From an uncultured Desulfovibrio sp. (GTDB lineage: Bacteria > Desulfobacterota > Desulfovibrionia > Desulfovibrionales > Desulfovibrionaceae): a stretch of 64,000 nucleotides of DNA. Numbering within the stretch: the stretch's first letter is position 1; each line of letters opens with the position of its first letter. The notes beneath the pieces were generated by a model that saw only the letters and a list, made by a program, of their open reading frames with translations, was not told where the DNA came from and did not search any database. Made by a program: the position numbers and the translations under genes. Positions 6,517 through 27,176 of this stretch are shown piece after piece. The stretch covers positions 496,001-560,000 of the forward strand of contig CAJXYU010000001.1 of the NCBI GenBank assembly GCA_913063155.1, given 5' to 3'.

Positions 6517-7377
6517 ATGATCATCCAGGCAAACCATCTGAATTTCAATTACCAGCAGAAGGTGCAGGCGCAGCAGGACGGAAAGACGTCCGGCCTGTCC
6601 CTGGGTGGTGTCATGGGCAACGGCCTCAAGGTGGGCAACAAGCATGCGGCCGGACTCTCCCCGCAACTCACTCGCGTTTCCAAAACTACGGAAACCACCA
6701 CGAGCACATCCCAAATCCAGGACCGGGTGGACGTCTTCGGCGACCTCATGGGCCGCTATCTGAATGGGTTCCAAGACGAAAGCGGAGAAACCAAGGACTC
6801 CACAGGCCTGGTTTCCTCGCTCAAGAACACGGTCAGTTGGATTGAAAATCAGTACGGCAAGGACGCGGCCACCGCCTCCATGGGAATGATCGTGCAATCC
6901 GCCTCACAGGGCCAGTCCGAGGAAGCCATCGGCGAAGGACTGCTCAACGTGCTGCGCATGGTGGACCGCAACTTCGGCATCGCCGCAGGGGACACTGCCA
7001 TTGCCCAGTTCAACTCCGGGGTCAACCAGGAGCTGAACGATTTCTTCGACAATGGCTCCAACGAAATCTTCATGGCCTCAAGCCCTGCGGCCGCAGCAAC
7101 AGCAGGCAGTGAAACTGCCGCCCTGAGCAGCCGGGTGCTGACACAGGTCCAGGCAACCTTGGACACCGTCGGCGATGACGACGGTGACGACGAAGAGATC
7201 AATCCCACCAAGGAACTGCTCAACGCCCTGCTGGCCGACATCGAGGAACAGGGCGGCATTGAGGCCGACAAGGACGAATTGGACAAAACCGCCAAGCAGC
7301 AAAGCAGACAACAGGCCCTTGCCGCCTACACCACGATGCCCGCACCCGACGCCCAACTCCTGAGCGCGTCCGTCTAG
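6517..7377 (+). CDS. Conserved-looking hypothetical protein, 286 residues
   Basis: I do not recognise a named domain. The protein is soluble, with no signal peptide or membrane segment. It has a low-complexity N-terminus, a Thr-rich linker (TTETTTSTSQ), a helical core around residues 70-190, and an acidic stretch DDDGDDEEI (about 222-230). The tail is rich in Gln and Ala. AAGGA precedes the ATG with a 9-base gap, and codon use matches the neighbours. It is divergent from selD across about 100 bases and convergent with lepB. The modular, glutamine-rich make-up recalls secreted or flagellum-associated accessory proteins, but that is only a resemblance. Confidence 0.7.
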   Translation: MIIQANHLNFNYQQKVQAQQDGKTSGLSLGGVMGNGLKVGNKHAAGLSPQLTRVSKTTETTTSTSQIQDRVDVFGDLMGRYLNGFQDESGETKDSTGLVSSLKNTVSWIENQYGKDAATASMGMIVQSASQGQSEEAIGEGLLNVLRMVDRNFGIAAGDTAIAQFNSGVNQELNDFFDNGSNEIFMASSPAAAATAGSETAALSSRVLTQVQATLDTVGDDDGDDEEINPTKELLNALLADIEEQGGIEADKDELDKTAKQQSRQQALAAYTTMPAPDAQLLSASV

Positions 7378-7420
7378 CGCAATCTTCAGTGCCTCTCCTG
7401 GCTATTTACCGACACCCTTC

Positions 7421-8095
7421 TCAGTGAACCATGGTACCTATTCTGCTCCAACGAATATCCGTGAGCGACGCCCAGGACCAGTAGATGAAGAGCGCCTTGC
7501 CGATGATGGCCGAACGGTCCACAAATCCCCAGAAACGGGAGTCATAGGACCCGTCGCGGTTGTCGCCCATGACGAAATACTTGCCCTCGGGGACCGTGAG
7601 TTTGGGCAGGTTGTCGCGTTTGGCCAGATTGTTGTTCCCGTTGAAATAGGCGGCGAACATGCCCGGCGTCAGGGCCTCGGGCATCCAGGACGAACGCTGG
7701 TAGACCGAGGGGTCCTTGTACATGGTATAGGAGCCCTTCTGCGGCTCCCCGTTGACGTAAAGTTCTTTATCACGGATCTCGACGGTGTCGCCCGGAACGG
7801 CGATCAGACGCTTGATGTAGTCCACATCCGGGTTTTCCGGGTACTTGAAGACGATGACATCACCACGCTCCGGATCGGACACCGGGACGAGAGTCTTGTC
7901 CGTGAACGGCAGCTTCACGCCGTAAAGAAACTTGCTGACCATCAGATGATCACCGATCTGCAGGGTCTCCAGCATGGAACCGGACGGAATCTTGAACGCC
8001 TGGACCACGAAGGTGCGGATGAAAAGGGCCAGAATAAGGGCCACGATGAGAATTTCGAAAGTATCGCGAACGGACTTGCCCACATCTTTACGCAT
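7421..8095 (-). CDS. lepB: Signal peptidase I, second tandem copy
   Basis: The 224-residue type I signal peptidase has one N-terminal membrane anchor (about residues 12-32). Box B, IPSGSMLETLQIGD, holds the catalytic serine. Box D, DYIKRLIAVPGD, holds the general-base lysine. Box E is MGDNRDGSYDSRFWGFV. It cleaves Sec and Tat signal peptides on the periplasmic side. ATG 8095 is chosen because GAGGAA lies just upstream and the protein then equals the other copy in length; an in-frame extension to 8236 crosses spacer DNA. It differs from the upstream copy at about 37 of 224 positions by eye, mostly in the middle region 115-160, while both ends are almost identical. Confidence 0.95.
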   Translation of the reverse strand: MRKDVGKSVRDTFEILIVALILALFIRTFVVQAFKIPSGSMLETLQIGDHLMVSKFLYGVKLPFTDKTLVPVSDPERGDVIVFKYPENPDVDYIKRLIAVPGDTVEIRDKELYVNGEPQKGSYTMYKDPSVYQRSSWMPEALTPGMFAAYFNGNNNLAKRDNLPKLTVPEGKYFVMGDNRDGSYDSRFWGFVDRSAIIGKALFIYWSWASLTDIRWSRIGTMVH

Positions 8096-8220
8096 GGTTT
8101 TTCCTCGCATGTTTTTCCCGCGGCAGGCTGCTGAAAAACGTTCGATTGCCAGAGCGCTTCGCCACTCGGACCTTTTTGAACAACCTGCATGCAGTTTCTG
8201 GGAAGAGTCAATCAAGCAAT

Positions 8221-8244
8221 ACGGGGGAGCTTGCACTCCCCCGT
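8221..8244 (-). terminator. Hairpin terminator after the first lepB copy
   Basis: A perfect 9-bp stem, ACGGGGGAG pairing with CTCCCCCGT, has a 6-base loop 60 bases past the stop of the first lepB. On the minus strand it is followed by a mixed AT stretch, not a clean T run, so termination may be partial. Confidence 0.5.
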
Positions 8245-8304
8245 CCTATCTTCTTTCAAACCGACAAAATCATCACGCCATACCGGCGGCTTCTCTTTCC
8301 TGCA

Positions 8305-8979
8305 TCAATGAACAATGGTGCCGATGCGGCTCCAACGAATATCCGTGAACGACGCCCAGGACCAGTGAATGAAAAGCGCTTTGCCGATGATCGCCGAACG
8401 GTCCACAAAACCCCAAAAACGTGAGTCGTGTGAGCCGTCGCGGTTGTCACCCATGACGAAATACTTGCCCTCGGGAACCGTGAGCTTGGGCAGGTTGTCG
8501 CGTTTGGCTCGGTTGTTGGTCCCGTTGAAATAGGCGTCAAACATGTCCGGGGTCAGGCTGGCCGGAATCTGGGGCACGGGCGCATAAATGTTGGGGTCCT
8601 TGTATACGGTGTAGGGCTCTTTTTGGAGTTCGCCGTTGACGTAAAGCCTTTTCTCATGGATTTCGACGGTGTCCCCCGGCCCGGCGATGACCCGTTTGAT
8701 GAAGTCCACATCCGGGTTTTCCGGGTACTTGAAGACGATGACATCACCGCGCTTCGGATCGGACACCGGGATGAGAATCTTGTCCGTGAACGGCAACTTC
8801 ACGCCGTAAAGGAACTTGCTCACCATCAGATGATCGCCTATCTGCAGGGTTTCCAGCATGGAGCCCGAAGGAATCTTGAACGCCTGGACCACGAAGGTGC
8901 GGATGAAAAGGGCCAGAATAAGGGCCACGATGAGAATTTCGAAGGTATCGCGAACGGATTTGACCAGGTCTTTACTCAT
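8305..8979 (-). CDS. lepB: Signal peptidase I, first tandem copy
   Basis: The 224-residue protein has the same architecture as the neighbouring copy: anchor, catalytic serine in IPSGSMLETLQIGD, lysine in DFIKRVIAGPGD, and MGDNRDGSHDSRFWGF near the end. AGGA lies upstream of the ATG. It follows lepA on the same strand, the lepA-lepB order known from many proteobacteria. The region around residues 115-150, part of the domain II insertion near the substrate groove in this family, differs most between the copies. They may therefore prefer different substrates, or be recent duplicates kept alike at their ends by gene conversion. Confidence 0.95.
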   Translation of the reverse strand: MSKDLVKSVRDTFEILIVALILALFIRTFVVQAFKIPSGSMLETLQIGDHLMVSKFLYGVKLPFTDKILIPVSDPKRGDVIVFKYPENPDVDFIKRVIAGPGDTVEIHEKRLYVNGELQKEPYTVYKDPNIYAPVPQIPASLTPDMFDAYFNGTNNRAKRDNLPKLTVPEGKYFVMGDNRDGSHDSRFWGFVDRSAIIGKALFIHWSWASFTDIRWSRIGTIVH

Positions 8980-9132
8980 TATTACTCGTTCCTAGGTTGA
9001 AGAAGAACCTTTGTTCTTCGGTGCTCTTAACGTAGCCACTGTACATCAAATAATTGAACGACCGACGCCAGTGAAAGAAGATTCGACGCTCTCGCAGCAG
9101 TGGGGGCGGACAAACCCAAGCCCTCAAGCCAT

Positions 9133-10935
9133 TTAGTCGTCGCCCGCCTTCAGGACGGATAAAAAAGCTTCCTGGGGTATTTCCACGTTACCCATGCGGC
9201 GCATGCGCTTTTTCCCTTCCTTCTGCTTTTCCAGAAGCTTGCGTTTACGAGATATGTCCCCGCCATAACACTTGGCGGTTACATCCTTCCGGAACGGTGC
9301 GTTGCGTTCCTTGGCGATGATCTTGCTGCCGATGGCGGCCTGGATGACCACCTCGAACAGCTGGCGCGGAATGGAACGCTTGAGACGCAGGGCTATGGCG
9401 CGTCCCTGACGGGCCGAGTTCTCGCGGTGCACGATGCAGGAGAAGGCGTCCACAGGATCACCGTTGATGAGGATGTCCAGCTTGACCATGTCGGCCTCAC
9501 GGTAGTCGATGATCTCGTAGTCCAGGGAAGCGTAGCCCTTGGTGCTGGACTTAAGCTTGTCGAAGAAATCGTACATGACCTCGGAGAACGGAATCTCGTA
9601 GGTGATCATCACACGGGTTGGCGTAATATAGCCCATGTTCTTCTGGATGCCGCGCTTTTCCTCACACAGGGCCAGCACCGGCCCCACAAATTCGTTGGGC
9701 ACGTGAATGTCCATGCGGACAAACGGCTCGTAGATGGTCTGGATCTTGGTGGGGTCGGGCAGCTTGCTGGGGCTGTCGATTTCCAGGTGTTTCCCGTCGA
9801 CGGTATCCACCTTGTAGACCACGGACGGGGCCGTGGTAATGAGCTTGGCGCCGAATTCGCGCTCCAGGCGCTCCTGAATGATCTCGATGTGCAGCAATCC
9901 CAAAAACCCGCAGCGAAACCCAAAACCGAGCGCCTGGGAAACTTCAGGTTCAAAGGTGAAGGCCGCATCGTTGAGCTGGAGCTTTTCCAAAGCAGCCTTG
10001 AGAGTTTCATACTCGGCGGGCTCAATGGGGTACAGACCGGCAAAGACCATTGGCTTGACCGGCTTGAATCCCGGGAAGGCATCCCGAGTGGGACGTTCGG
10101 CGAGGGTGATGGTGTCACCCACGGGCGCATCGCCCAGTTCCTTCATGCTCGCGCACAGGAACCCGACCTCGCCCGGCCCCATTTCCTTGATGTCCACCGG
10201 TTCGGGCATGAATGCACCGAGACGGGTGACGTCGAAGTCCTTGCCCGTGGAGAAGATACGGATATCGTCTCCCTTGCGAAGCTTGCCGTCCAAGATGCGG
10301 AAAAGGACCACCACCCCCTGGTAGGAGTCATACCAGGAGTCGAAGATGAGCGCCTTGAGGGGCGCATCCGGATCTCCTTCTGGGGCGGGCAGCTGTTCCA
10401 CCACGGCGTCGAGCACCTTTTCCACGTTGAGACCGGTCTTGGCTGAAACATGCAGGGTATCCGAACAATCCAGACCGATAACTTCCTCAATCTCCCGGGA
10501 AATGACCTCGGGATCGGCGCTGGGCAGGTCGATCTTGTTCAGCACCGGGATGACTTCCAGGTCGTTGTCCAGGGCCAGGTAAACGTTGGCCAGGGTCTGG
10601 GCCTCCACCCCCTGGGTGGCGTCCACCACCAGCAACGCGCCTTCGCAGGCGGCCAGGGAGCGGGACACCTCATAACTGAAGTCCACGTGCCCCGGGGTAT
10701 CGATAAGATTGAGCACGTACTCGGCGCCGTCGGCAGCCTTGTAGGGAATGCGTACGGTTTGGGCCTTGATGGTGATGCCCCGCTCGCGCTCAAGCTCCAT
10801 CTTGTCCAGGTACTGGTCCTTTTTCTCACGGTCGGAAACCATGCCCGTGATCTCGAGGATACGGTCGGCCAAGGTGGATTTCCCATGGTCGATATGGGCG
10901 ATTATGCTGAAATTTCGTATATTTTTTGTATTCAT
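9133..10935 (-). CDS. lepA: Elongation factor 4 (back-translocating GTPase)
   Basis: The 600-residue protein is full length for LepA/EF-4. It has G1 ([15 protein letters not shown]), switch II ([13 protein letters not shown]), G4 (NKIDLPSAD), the beta-barrel domain, and the LepA-specific C-terminus with [25 protein letters not shown]. It acts on ribosomes and is thought to help initiation and stalled elongation. No good Shine-Dalgarno is visible before ATG 10935. It precedes the two lepB copies in the same direction with a 153-base gap that contains a small GAAGAAC/GTTCTTC hairpin. Confidence 0.97.
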
Positions 10936-22584: not shown

Positions 22585-23076
22585 TTAGCTGGCGCTCCCC
22601 GCCACTTCGGCCTGATGTTCTTCGTTTTCCTCGGGAAACTCCTCTGCGAACTCGGCGGCAGGAGCGAATTCGGCGCGAACCACGTTGTCCGCGGGCGCCT
22701 GCGTACTCTGCACGGAGCCACCGCTCATGGACAGGCTTCCCTGAAGCACTGCTCCCTGTTCCACAACGAGCTTGTCCGCCACAAGACTGCCCTCCAAGAC
22801 CGCAGTCTTCTGGAGCACAGCTTTACCTTGCACAGTCACCTCGCCCAAAATGGCGCCGCAGGAGCTGAGTTCCCCGACACGAACAATTCCCTTGATGGAG
22901 GCTTCACGCCCCAACACAAGGGTACCGTCGGTTGAAATTTCTCCTTCGAAGGAGCCGTCTATACGCACCGTGCCGACGAAGTCAAGCTTACCCCTATACT
23001 CAGTACCCACGCCCAAAAAGGCGTTCAGTTCACCCGGGTTGCCTTCAACGTCGTTCTTTTTATTGAAGAGAGCCAT
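22585..23076 (-). CDS. Bactofilin family cytoskeletal protein
   Basis: The 163-residue protein has the DUF583 right-handed beta-helix, seen as short repeating strands (FLGVGTEYRGKLDFVGTVRIDGSFEGEISTDG... in the core about 18-125). Unstructured tails flank it, the C-terminal one acidic (EEFPEENEEHQ). Bactofilins self-assemble into filaments without nucleotide and position cell-wall or motility machinery. AGAGGA precedes the ATG. It is divergent from the cyclic-nucleotide/FliG-like-motAB operon across 314 bases. Confidence 0.92.
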   Translation of the reverse strand: MALFNKKNDVEGNPGELNAFLGVGTEYRGKLDFVGTVRIDGSFEGEISTDGTLVLGREASIKGIVRVGELSSCGAILGEVTVQGKAVLQKTAVLEGSLVADKLVVEQGAVLQGSLSMSGGSVQSTQAPADNVVRAEFAPAAEFAEEFPEENEEHQAEVAGSAS

Positions 23077-23390: not shown

Positions 23391-24566
23391 ATGACAACCA
23401 AGAAGAACGTCCAGAATATCAAAACCTTCTATAAAGATCAGATCATTTTCAAGGAAGGACAGCAGGCCAGCTACGCCTACATGGTCAAGAAAGGCACGGT
23501 GACATTATATCGTACCGTGGACAACAAAAAGATTATCCTCGACCAAGTGGGCAAAGGCGAAATTTTCGGCGAAATGGGAGCGCTTACGGGCTCGCCCCGG
23601 TCCACCTCGGCCGAGGCCTCGGAATACTGTGAAATCATGGTTCTCACCGAAAACGTCATTCAGGCTTTGCTGGACAAGTGCCCCAAGACCATTCAGCATC
23701 TCACCCGCCTGCTCATCGAGAAGCTCAGAAAAAAAACACGTCTCAGCGCGGCCCAGGCCAGCGGCAGCACCTTCCTGAGTATCTGCCGCATTCTGGAAAT
23801 GGCTTGGAAGACTCACGTCAACCTGCCGCCAACAGAGAGAAAGCGCCATCCCAATCACAAGGCGGGCATGAGTCTCTCCGAGCTCTCCAGGCAGATCAAG
23901 GACATTCTGCTCACCCCCCAAAGCGAGATAAAATCCACAATCGATCAGCTTCAACGCCTCAAGATCATTGAGGTAACCAAAGGCAAGGGAGCCAAAGCCT
24001 TTGACGACCTGTTCATCAGCATCAAGGACGCCGAAAATTTTTTCCAGGTGGCCTCCAACCTGTACAAGGAATTGAACAAGAGCGGTTCCCTCAACCCGGA
24101 ACTGGAACTGGTGGACATCTTCGACCTGGCAAAGGAGCTGGGGGCCGACCCGCAGATCCTGTACAAAAAGATGGCCAACAGCGAGGTGCCCGAAAGCCTG
24201 TTCTTTTTCCACAAGAAGAACGCCCTGACCTGGGCCGGGGAACAGCCCGAGGACTACTTCAAAAGGGTCAAGCGGAAGAAAAAGAAGATCGAGGACCTGG
24301 AGGACGTCAACGACATCATCTTCGTGGACAACGCCACCCTCAAACAGGTCTTTGCCGAGTTGGGCTACTATAAACTCGGTGTGCTCATGTCCCTGGCCGA
24401 CGGCGACGCCATCAAGAAGATTCAGAACAACCTGGCCAAAAAAATCGCCCGTGTGGTGATGGAAGAAGCGGAAAACCGTGGGCCCGTGGACGACATGGAA
24501 GCGGAAGATATCCAGGATGAACTCATTGCGCGGATCAAGAGCGTCAAGGGGGTCAAAGAGTCGTGA
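23391..24566 (+). CDS. Cyclic-nucleotide-binding protein with FliG-like C-terminal domain
   Basis: This 391-residue protein appears to be a three-part fusion. Residues 10-115 are a CAP-type cNMP domain with the phosphate-binding cassette FGEMGALTGSPRSTSAEA, keeping E61 and R70. Residues about 158-198 look like a Crp-type winged helix (SLSELSRQIKDILLTPQ). Residues 299-385 resemble the FliG torque domain: DLEDVNDIIFVDNATLKQVF, then NNLAKKIARVVMEEAENRGPV. Aligned to E. coli FliG by eye, R281 becomes K351, D288 and D289 become E358 and E359, and NRGPV is identical, so torque-helix charges are kept. K264 and R297 are not kept. It overlaps motA (TCGTGA). I infer a nucleotide-controlled rotor-like partner of the stator genes. 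Confidence 0.85.
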   Translation: MTTKKNVQNIKTFYKDQIIFKEGQQASYAYMVKKGTVTLYRTVDNKKIILDQVGKGEIFGEMGALTGSPRSTSAEASEYCEIMVLTENVIQALLDKCPKTIQHLTRLLIEKLRKKTRLSAAQASGSTFLSICRILEMAWKTHVNLPPTERKRHPNHKAGMSLSELSRQIKDILLTPQSEIKSTIDQLQRLKIIEVTKGKGAKAFDDLFISIKDAENFFQVASNLYKELNKSGSLNPELELVDIFDLAKELGADPQILYKKMANSEVPESLFFFHKKNALTWAGEQPEDYFKRVKRKKKKIEDLEDVNDIIFVDNATLKQVFAELGYYKLGVLMSLADGDAIKKIQNNLAKKIARVVMEEAENRGPVDDMEAEDIQDELIARIKSVKGVKES

Positions 24567-25336
24567 ACATAGCCACCATCTTCGGAATAATCGCCGGCAT
24601 AGCCGTTCTCTGTACGGCCACCTTTTTCGCCACCGACTCGGTAGCCGTATTCATCAACCTGCCGGGGCTGGCCATCGTGCTGGGCGGCACCATCGCAGCC
24701 ACTTTCATCTGTTATCCGCTCAAGGAGGTCATGCGTGTTTTCGCCCTGTTCATGACCGCTTTCACGGCCGAAGAACTGCCCATCGCCAACTACATCAAAG
24801 TTTTGGTGGGAATCTCCAAGGATGTGGCGGGCAAAGGGGAAGAATACCTGGAAAAATCCCTGAAAAAGATCGACAACGAATTTTTGCGCGACGGACTCCA
24901 GATGCTCGTGGACGGATATGACAAGAAGGAGCTGCGTGAAATCCTGGATAACCGCATCCAGCAGTATCACGACCAGGAGCTTTACGCCACGGGCATCTAC
25001 CGGACCATGGCCGCGCTTTCCCCGGCTTTCGGCATCATCGGCACACTCATCGGACTCATCGCCATGATGCAGGGCATGGGCGACGACATCACGCGCATCG
25101 GCCCTGGCATGGCCACGGCGTTGACCACGACGCTCTACGGCGTACTTTTCGCCAATCTGCTCTACCTGCCCATCGCCACCAAGGTGGAACGCAGGGTGGA
25201 GGAACGCACCATCCTCATGTGCGTGTTCCGCGACGGTATCCTGCACATCAAGGACAAAACCCCGGCGGCCATCATCCAGGACAAACTCAGGGGCTACCTG
25301 CCGCCGCGCAGTTGGTCGGCCATCTCGGCCCGCTAG
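24563..25336 (+). CDS. motA: MotA/PomA-type stator protein
   Basis: The 257-residue protein has four membrane spans: two near the N-terminus (about 3-24 and 29-50) and two near 155-175 and 185-210. The last pair contains LSPAFGIIGTLIGLIAMMQG with the conserved proline, and PGMATALTTTLYGVLFANLLYLPIA. The cytoplasmic loop EFLRDGLQMLVDGYDKKELREIL carries the charged residues that in this family contact FliG. GTG 24563 is the start, overlapping the FliG-like gene by 4 bases. With MotB it forms an ion-driven 5:2 stator. Confidence 0.95.
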   Translation: MNIATIFGIIAGIAVLCTATFFATDSVAVFINLPGLAIVLGGTIAATFICYPLKEVMRVFALFMTAFTAEELPIANYIKVLVGISKDVAGKGEEYLEKSLKKIDNEFLRDGLQMLVDGYDKKELREILDNRIQQYHDQELYATGIYRTMAALSPAFGIIGTLIGLIAMMQGMGDDITRIGPGMATALTTTLYGVLFANLLYLPIATKVERRVEERTILMCVFRDGILHIKDKTPAAIIQDKLRGYLPPRSWSAISAR

Positions 25337-25346
25337 GAACTCTGCC

Positions 25347-26060
25347 ATGCTTGAGCACAAGCCCCCCTTCCCCAAACGCCATTCCCGGCGGCACGAGCAA
25401 GGCAACTGGACCTTGTCCTTCGCCGACATGATGACTCTGCTGCTCTGCTTTTTCGTGCTCATGCTCGCCGTCTCCAAAGTGGACAAGACCCGCTATGCGG
25501 CCATGTCGTCCATCATGGCCGAGGCCATGAAAGGCAAGGCCGCCCCATCCAACACCGACAAAGATGCTCCGCTCCCCCCCGGGAAAAAGGAAAAAAATCT
25601 CTTCGAACTGCAGCTTGAACTCAGCCGGACCATCGGCAGGGACAAGGAGGCTCTCTCCCTCAAGCTGCGCCCCGACGCAGTAGCCATCAACCTCAAAGGC
25701 GCGGTCTTCTTCAAACTGGGAGACGCCACCCTGACCAATCGGGCCAAGGACATCCTGAATCGCATCGTGGGCCCGCTCACCGAGCAGCGTTACGACCTGA
25801 TCATCGAAGGTCACTCGGACAACATTCCCATCCATTCGGACCGGTACCCATCCAACTGGGAGTTGTCTTCGGCCCGCGCCTCCTCGGTGGCCCGGTTCTT
25901 CATTGCCCGAGGCTTCCCCAAGGACGACATCAAGGTCATGGGCCTGGCCGACACCCAGCCCCTCGCCCCCAACGTGGATGACAAGGGAATTCCGCTTCCT
26001 CTGAACCAAAGCAAAAACCGGCGTGTGATCATCCTGGTCAAACCGGGCAAGGCGTCATAA
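25347..26060 (+). CDS. motB: MotB-type stator protein with OmpA domain
   Basis: The 237-residue protein has one membrane span with the ion-binding aspartate D27 in NWTLSFADMMTLLLCFFVLML. A linker rich in Lys and Pro follows. The C-terminal OmpA-like peptidoglycan domain reads YDLIIEGHSDNIPIHSDRYPSNWELSSARASSVARFF...NRRVIILVKP. AGGAA precedes the ATG, 10 bases after motA. Both stator parts are complete, and their coupling to the upstream FliG-like sensor is the notable feature. Confidence 0.95.
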   Translation: MLEHKPPFPKRHSRRHEQGNWTLSFADMMTLLLCFFVLMLAVSKVDKTRYAAMSSIMAEAMKGKAAPSNTDKDAPLPPGKKEKNLFELQLELSRTIGRDKEALSLKLRPDAVAINLKGAVFFKLGDATLTNRAKDILNRIVGPLTEQRYDLIIEGHSDNIPIHSDRYPSNWELSSARASSVARFFIARGFPKDDIKVMGLADTQPLAPNVDDKGIPLPLNQSKNRRVIILVKPGKAS

Positions 26061-26108: not shown

Positions 26109-27176
26109 ATGGACACCATCATCACCTGGAAAAACCTGACCGGAACTTTTCTGAAGTCCGAGCTCACTGACGTACTCACGGCCCTGGCCGTGCTGCTGCC
26201 CGCTCTTGGCGCGGCCGCACTGCTGCGCCGCATGGCCGGAAACCGACTCACCCGCTGGGCCGAACAGGGCGGTTCCAGCCTCGACCCACAGCACGCCAAA
26301 AGACTGCTGGGGTCGCTGTACTGGTTCTTGAACCTGGGGGCGGTCTACGCCTTTTTCGAATCCCTGGAAATGGAACAAGGCGCCCAGGCCCTCATGGGGC
26401 ACCTGTTCCTGATCCTGTTCACCCTCACAACCATCTCCCTGATCTTCAATGCGCTGCGCTTTTTCCTGGACATCTACCTGCGCAAACAGGGGTCGTCATT
26501 GGCCGGGACCAGGGGCAAGGTGGTGCTCCCCGTCGTCAAGGGCGTTGTCTGGGTGTTGGCTCTGGCCTTCATTCTGGACAACTTCGGAGTCAAGGTGGGT
26601 ACCCTGCTTGCAGGCCTCGGCGTGGCGGGCGTTGCCGTGGGCTTCGCAGCCCAGGCCATCCTGGGAGACCTGTTCAGCTACTTCGCCATCCTCTTCGACC
26701 GCCCCTTCGCCATCGGTGACTTCATCATCGTGGGTGACCTCATGGGCACGGTTGAACATATCGGGCTCAAGACTTCACGCATCCGCAGCCTGGCGGGCGA
26801 ACAGATCATCATAGCCAACTCGGACCTGACCGGAGCCCGGGTCAAGAATTACCAACGCATGTCCCGCCGCCGCGTGGTCTTTTCCTTCGGCGTTCTCTAT
26901 TCCACTCCCTCGGTTAAACTGGAGGCCGTACCCGGGTTCGTCAAATCCATCATCGAAAAGACTCCGAAAACCACATTCGACCGGGCCCATTTCTTCCGCT
27001 TCGGCGACAGCAGCCTGGACTTCGAAGTGGTCTACTATGTGGAATCCCCGGACTTTAACGAGTACATGGATACCCAAGAATGCATCAATCTGGCCATTTT
27101 CCGCAAGTTTGAGGAGGAAGGAGTCGGCTTCGCCTTCCCCACCCGCACCATCTACATGCGGCAGCCAGAGGGGTAG
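26109..27176 (+). CDS. MscS-family mechanosensitive channel
   Basis: The 355-residue channel has four or five N-terminal spans. The pore helix TM3 reads LLAGLGVAGVAVGFAAQAILGDLFSYFAILFDRPFAIGDFI, with the Gly/Ala pattern that lines the MscS pore. A beta domain follows (SLAGEQIIIANSDLTGARVKNY) and then a C-terminal alpha/beta cage. It releases solutes on osmotic downshock. GAGG lies just before the ATG. It follows motB on the same strand after 48 bases, so it may be on the motility transcript or have its own promoter. Confidence 0.92.
   Translation: MDTIITWKNLTGTFLKSELTDVLTALAVLLPALGAAALLRRMAGNRLTRWAEQGGSSLDPQHAKRLLGSLYWFLNLGAVYAFFESLEMEQGAQALMGHLFLILFTLTTISLIFNALRFFLDIYLRKQGSSLAGTRGKVVLPVVKGVVWVLALAFILDNFGVKVGTLLAGLGVAGVAVGFAAQAILGDLFSYFAILFDRPFAIGDFIIVGDLMGTVEHIGLKTSRIRSLAGEQIIIANSDLTGARVKNYQRMSRRRVVFSFGVLYSTPSVKLEAVPGFVKSIIEKTPKTTFDRAHFFRFGDSSLDFEVVYYVESPDFNEYMDTQECINLAIFRKFEEEGVGFAFPTRTIYMRQPEG

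Follow-up and report, generated by a model that had tools for sequence, protein, structure and literature searches.

A gene directly upstream of motA and motB in an uncultured Desulfovibrio encodes a 391-residue protein in which a cyclic-nucleotide-binding (CNB) domain is joined, through a winged helix and a second small helical domain, to the torque subdomain of the flagellar rotor protein FliG. The best-supported reading is a rotor-like partner that senses a cyclic mononucleotide (cNMP) and acts on MotAB; we give a probability of about 0.5 to a private MotAB stator that has this protein as its clutch, brake or docking adaptor under cNMP control. The protein architecture and the gene neighborhood are observed, and from these we infer that the protein binds a nucleotide and contacts MotA, which way the effect goes and what the load is. 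A first-pass annotation of this DNA had proposed the fusion, the fold, the torque-helix charges and the linkage to motAB from a single locus, and all four are confirmed here across a family of proteins.

The stretch analysed, called the window below, spans 64,000 nucleotides (contig CAJXYU010000001.1, positions 496,001 to 560,000). Its relevant features, in window coordinates, are as follows.

23391-24566, + strand: protein with CNB, winged-helix, small helical and FliG torque domains, 391 aa (ORF; Pfam; AlphaFold)
23421-23678, + strand: CNB domain, residues 11-96, E61 and R70 intact (PF00027, E 2.3e-21)
23763-24080, + strand: winged-helix domain, about residues 125-230 (secondary structure of the model; VIA matches to CRP-type, SarX, PadR and Bd2879 structures)
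24096-24290, + strand: second small helical (HTH-like) domain and basic linker VKRKKKK, about residues 236-300 (AlphaFold model)
24294-24557, + strand: FliG C-terminal torque subdomain, residues 302-389 (PF01706; VIA; Foldseek)
24438-24476, + strand: torque-helix equivalent, residues 350-362, with K351, E358 and E359 (model helix; alignment register; conservation)
24563-25336, + strand: motA of the operon type, GTG start (PF01618, E 4.6e-29)
25347-26060, + strand: motB, with plug/transmembrane segment and OmpA peptidoglycan-binding domain (PF13677, PF00691)
26109-27176, + strand: MscS-type channel gene, 3' of motB (Pfam)

The sensor gene and motA share four bases (24563-24566). An ORF check reproduced the coordinates, frames and overlap of the first-pass annotation, and the Pfam plug and OmpA domains bear out its placement of motB after motA. 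The MscS-type channel gene is probably outside the system; a match to it adjoins the operon in three of 47 loci, the window included. A bactofilin gene lies just upstream of the operon on the minus strand (22585-23076; Pfam). Consensus scans for promoters, terminators and sigma-54 or sigma-28 sites returned nothing above shuffled expectation. The AlphaFold model of the sensor protein, built with a 52-row alignment, has a mean pLDDT of 83.7 and reaches 85-94 per block over residues 301-390; its pTM of 0.40 means that the packing of the domains relative to each other is not predicted.

Residues 302-389 are a true FliG torque subdomain. Pfam model PF01706 (FliG_C) matches residues 303-384 with E 1.6e-7 and 31.9 bits against a cut-off of 23.3. 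In its genome this gene is the second-best FliG_C match, behind the real fliG, located elsewhere. Neither FliG_N (PF14842) nor FliG_M (PF14841) has a Pfam match in the protein at E<=1, so it is not a FliG. A comparison of the family profile with the FliG of the same genome places K351 on R281 and E358/E359 on D288/D289 (hhalign E 2.3e-4, at a probability of only 44%). A PDB sequence search with residues 101-391 returned FliG for its four best matches, with E from 7.6e-4 and in the identical register, and the ranges aligned by structure are consistent with it. The residue equivalences put forward in the first-pass annotation thus stand, residue by residue, against the genome's own FliG and solved FliG sequences alike. 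The same annotation had cited an NRGPV motif identical to FliG; we dropped it as evidence, since the motif is unconserved across the family and missing from the FliG of this very genome.

Structure prediction, which the annotation had suggested as a check on its FliG_C alignment, finds the fold where the Pfam match lies. VIA-align superposes residues 302-389 of the AlphaFold model on FliG structures 8wiw_3 (Z 13.9), 4fhr_B (13.6) and 1lkv (13.2), with an rmsd of 1.7-1.9 A across 86-87 residues. When the model of residues 122-391 is searched by Foldseek, ranks 1-9 are all FliG chains, at E-values (8.5e-4 to 0.02) that are weak, and 8ucs_H, a FliG bound to a MotAB stator, follows at rank 11 with a TMt of 0.81. 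VIA with the same model lists FliG in all of rows 1-13 (Z 10.8-13.7, a range in which helical folds can reach about 13 by common arrangement) and then falls to 9.2. We accept the FliG fold on the strength of these unbroken runs of FliG, the drop that follows and the sequence match. With the whole model as query, CNB chains fill the first 50 rows of Foldseek, with no FliG among these, and FliG appears in VIA. Chance similarity to FliG_C was considered and rejected: a family profile free of FliG and CNB sequences finds matches at E<=0.001 in 176 of 395 genomes of the phylum. Outside the family, almost all of the matches listed cover the FliG_C part only, and most of these fall in open frames about as long as a FliG.

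The search for relatives found 73 full-length members, with the window's own among them, in 199 genomes of the order, all within a single taxonomic family (f1), with 30-85% identity to the window protein in the 52-row alignment. For every one of the 47 non-tandem members, again counting the window, motA lies directly downstream, and all but one of these loci (L060) have a motB match. The spacing from sensor gene to motA, taken from longest-ORF starts, is -4 in 32 loci, -1 in 11 and +3 in one; three loci with overlong motA ORFs were skipped. The linkage also holds in the opposite direction. A MotA-based search of 79 f1 genomes yielded six newly seen genomes, chosen by a listed MotA score in the operon-type range, and all six carry the sensor gene upstream. 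A full sensor gene was found at none of 44 fetched loci of other MotA types, over 1.5-2 kb upstream. FliG_N is present in 169 of 199 f1 genomes, in all 46 operon genomes drawn from the 47, by comparison of lists by eye, and in all six further operon genomes. Several genomes of the window's own genus have FliG and lack the operon, which makes the operon an accessory of flagellated genomes. Alignments A1 and A3 hold 38 of the 47 motAB-linked members, A2 holds those 38 plus 14 of 26 tandem paralogs, and A4 has 21 rows; residue counts within the family took in all 73 members.

The remaining 26 members are tandem paralogs that make up 13 pairs; the 13 genomes that carry them belong to genus g13, and each has a motAB-linked copy as well.

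About 6980-9390 in each of loci L041, L043, L044, L048, L049, L052, L053, L055, L059, L061, L064, L065 and L067: tandem pair

The stretches of about 7 kb that flank these pairs on each side contain no match to MotA or MotB at E<=1e-5. FliG_C scores for one pair are 17.6 and 27.0 bits, so that one copy falls under the 23.3 cut-off. By eye, the pairs in L052, L041 and L064 lie with genes for a biotin-ligase-like protein and a TVP38-like membrane protein. An 82-row tree has an arbitrary root and long branches that meet, and does not settle the ancestry of the motAB linkage.

The MotA encoded next to the sensor is, as judged from its sequence, a separate type. Any two operon MotAs share at least 59% identity, and their identity to four other MotAs of the window's own genome does not exceed 38%. 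The recognised MotA-FliG contacts are R90 with D288-D289 and E98 with R281, according to the available part of PMC12505986. The position of E. coli Arg90 is basic in none of 53 operon-type MotAs (Ser in 35, Ala in 13, Thr in one, a gap in four) and in all 48 other MotAs (47 distinct). Two residues further on, 49 of the 53 have Lys or Arg, versus Glu in 43 of the 48. The E98 position is Glu in 53/53 and 46/48, respectively. The window MotA has A89 and K91 where other MotAs carry a basic and an acidic residue, and it keeps E97. The comparison set of 48 comprises the 44 fetched loci and four paralogs from the same genome, with one duplicate (own L104 = L151), and overlong MotA ORFs were trimmed to their last 262 residues before alignment. 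Altogether, the window's genome (G000) has five MotA-like genes besides those resembling TolQ/ExbB. Several loci of two other MotA types have two motB-like genes after motA.

On the partner's side, the K351 position is basic, position 358 acidic and position 359 Glu in 45 of 47 motAB-linked sensors each. The FliG residues K264 and R297, which we take to be charges of the torque face, are not kept. The K264 equivalent (334) is uncharged in 47/47 (Ser, Ala, Thr or Gly), and the R297 equivalent (367), which is Lys in the genome's own FliG, is acidic in 45/47 and Asp in 44/47. In the six held-out proteins K351 and E359 are kept in all, and 358 and 367 are acidic in five each. All 26 tandem copies likewise keep K351 and an acid at 359, so conservation of these two positions alone is no argument for contact with MotA. 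At position 358 the same copies have an acid in four cases and a basic residue in 14, so that most have lost the acid corresponding to D288; position 367 carries an acid in 15. With the Arg90 region of MotA altered and an acid at the partner's R297 position, both partners have changed. We read this as a putative co-adapted, private interface between sensor and MotA, from a comparison between groups of related sequences.

The pocket residues of the N-terminal domain are well conserved. The CAP-type CNB domain with intact E61 and R70 that had been recognised at first pass was recovered by Pfam over residues 11-96, as tabulated above; E61 is kept in 47/47 motAB-linked members and R70 in 44/47, the other three having Phe. 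The closest solved CNB domain is that of Bd1971 (to residues about 8-114). In our own alignment, the position matching the base-capping Arg of Bd1971, a role described in the accessible part of PMC12750041, is Arg or Lys in 43/47 and Lys in the window protein. The same genome has two Guanylate_cyc (class III cyclase) domain matches. Among the ligands named at first pass, cAMP, cGMP and a cyclic dinucleotide, the last would be the weakest candidate, because the fold is that of CAP-type cNMP domains and the E/R pair is present. The predicted winged-helix part was likewise found by model and VIA, and the CNB domain and winged helix together align with CRP structure 4ev0_D (VIA Z 15.2, 191 aligned residues) at an rmsd of 8.3, with the domains shifted. 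Helix 176-190, at the presumed recognition position, has a mean net charge of -1.0 over 47 members (range -3 to 0).

We therefore picture, as a working model, a soluble cyclic-mononucleotide sensor whose C-terminus derives from the rotor's FliG torque domain. It would dock on the cytoplasmic face of the dedicated MotA from the next gene, using the charged helix by which FliG itself docks. When the N-terminal domain takes up or loses cAMP or cGMP, the FliG-like end would shift, and the shift would permit or block engagement of the private MotAB stator and probably proton flow as well. The load is most likely the flagellum, because every operon-bearing genome examined also has FliG. As it lacks FliG_N and FliG_M matches, the sensor protein should not join the C-ring in the manner of FliG. 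Among second messengers, c-di-GMP is known to control flagellar stators by way of PilZ proteins; the present sensor has the rotor's own torque domain, a mononucleotide-type pocket and a stator of its own. The system may show, as a natural experiment, whether the charge contact between MotA and FliG is open to rewiring as a distinct pair, and it may give a direct experimental handle on stator engagement and release.

No description of a CNB-FliG fusion beside stator genes was found in the open-access full-text literature. Compared with FliG, the protein shares the fold of the torque (C1-6) subdomain and the R281/D288/D289 charges, and differs in having no N-terminal or middle-domain match at E<=1, its unkept K264 and R297 equivalents and its fused cNMP sensor. 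The PilZ stator effectors YcgR and MotI/DgrA resemble it as soluble second-messenger proteins with an expected action at the MotA-FliG contact: the excerpt of PMC12713396 describes YcgR as a brake acting, under c-di-GMP, on those residues of MotA with which the torque helix makes contact, and MotI as a clutch that binds MotA, also under c-di-GMP. The sensor differs from both in having a CNB domain with a true FliG domain, and its own stator in the operon; no PilZ domain was matched in it by Pfam at E<=1. Bdellovibrio supplies two further likenesses. Bd1971, the source of the nearest solved CNB domain, is an EAL enzyme (PMC12750041, in part), and Bd2879 shares a CNB domain and winged helix and has an HTH2 and a C-terminal zinc-finger region, with no FliG part named in the portion of PMC12750041 available. 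Regulators of the CRP/FNR group also place a CNB domain before a winged helix; the sensor departs from them in its extra FliG domain, its net-acidic presumed recognition helix and its linkage to motAB.

Other explanations differ in the load or the target. Tentatively, the operon may encode an orthogonal rotary machine. Its private MotAB, with the charges at the interface altered, would drive, or be restrained by, a rotor mimic that the same operon encodes and a cNMP switches; if true, the cell would have a second motor with a nucleotide clutch, alongside the ordinary one of the flagellum. A private rotary machine in which the protein is a rotor-side adaptor turned by a dedicated 5:2 MotAB against a non-flagellar load with the nucleotide as clutch, seems doubtful. 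It would fit a distinct MotA type without a basic residue at the Arg90 position and a partner without matches to the FliG domains that bind FliF and FliM; against it, FliG_N occurs in all 46 operon genomes examined, no ring-forming part is seen and MotB retains an ordinary peptidoglycan-binding domain. Competition with FliG in the ordinary motor, an option raised at first pass, ranks below a dedicated pair, given an operon MotA without Arg90 and with a changed charge beside that position. A flagellar brake of this kind, a nucleotide-bound FliG mimic that competes for ordinary stators or caps rotor subunits of the main motor, is unlikely. The retained R281 and D288/D289 charges would suit it, and YcgR, in the excerpt available, works at the same site, but the linkage is to one special MotA type, with the full gene at 0/44 other-MotA loci, and the altered charges should make for a weaker contact with an ordinary MotA.

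Two alternatives remain. Quite improbable is a role as a CRP-like, cNMP-sensing regulator of the operon's transcription, with a FliG domain that does no more than sense free MotA. The 191-residue alignment with CRP, despite the shifted domains, and the alignment with Bd2879, a "putative transcription factor" according to the part of its depositors' account available, speak for such a role, and the winged helix leaves room for DNA binding; yet the presumed recognition helix is on average net-acidic over the 47 members, and this role would not explain the obligate special MotA type or why it is mainly the linked copies that keep an acid at 358. Still less credible is a part in stator synthesis, as a factor that binds MotA for assembly or quality control and has a signal-insensitive or degenerate CNB domain: a likely translational coupling (overlap of -4 or -1 in 43/44) agrees with it, but the pocket is well conserved, as the E61 and R70 counts attest. 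A sensor acting on its own MotAB stator remains the preferred reading.

Homologs outside f1 place the fusion in a second motility-related setting. The CNB-free profile A3, searched against 395 genomes of the phylum, had among the matches listed middle-part matches (E 2.4e-6 and 4.1e-6) in a 404-aa protein of genus g48, family f11, and those in genomes G203 and G239 led to remote homologs of full architecture, found in all three g48 genomes.

L140:3725-4939: remote full-architecture homolog
L141:4891-6105: remote full-architecture homolog
L142:1440-2690: remote full-architecture homolog

The L141 copy scores 65.5 bits for CNB and 46.3 bits for FliG_C in Pfam and adjoins genes of GGDEF-response-regulator, CheB and CheA type; the L140 copy lies about 7 kb from fliG. 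A hint of HTH_17 for the second small helical domain (E 0.014, under its cut-off) comes from the remote homolog only. Inspection of the ORF lists by eye showed no motAB near these genes, in g48 genomes that are 62-79% complete, and the class of G203 consists of three genomes only. The fusion thus occurs outside motAB operons too, and both settings are motility-related. As to the question raised at first pass, the domain pair does not always sit next to motAB: it does in all 47 non-tandem members, and it does not in the 26 tandem paralogs of 13 genomes or, by eye, in the three remote homologs. No other lineage has a full-length match to profile A4 among the matches listed; A4 includes the three remote homologs, whose own E-values against it are by construction. 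A plasmid search with residues 200-391 gave no match, and short peptide patterns of the window protein, sought in contigs of many phyla, gave one match in the CNB region (L007), which is uninformative. Two further arrangements were seen. One f1 genome encodes, at L145:5575-6618, a protein that by eye has a CNB domain and one winged helix and no FliG domain, possibly an ancestor-like or trimmed relative. At L199:1325-1849, in one of the 44 loci of other MotA types, a 174-aa CNB-only ORF precedes by about 150 bases a motA of a different, canonical type; a CNB domain may have been paired with a stator independently here.
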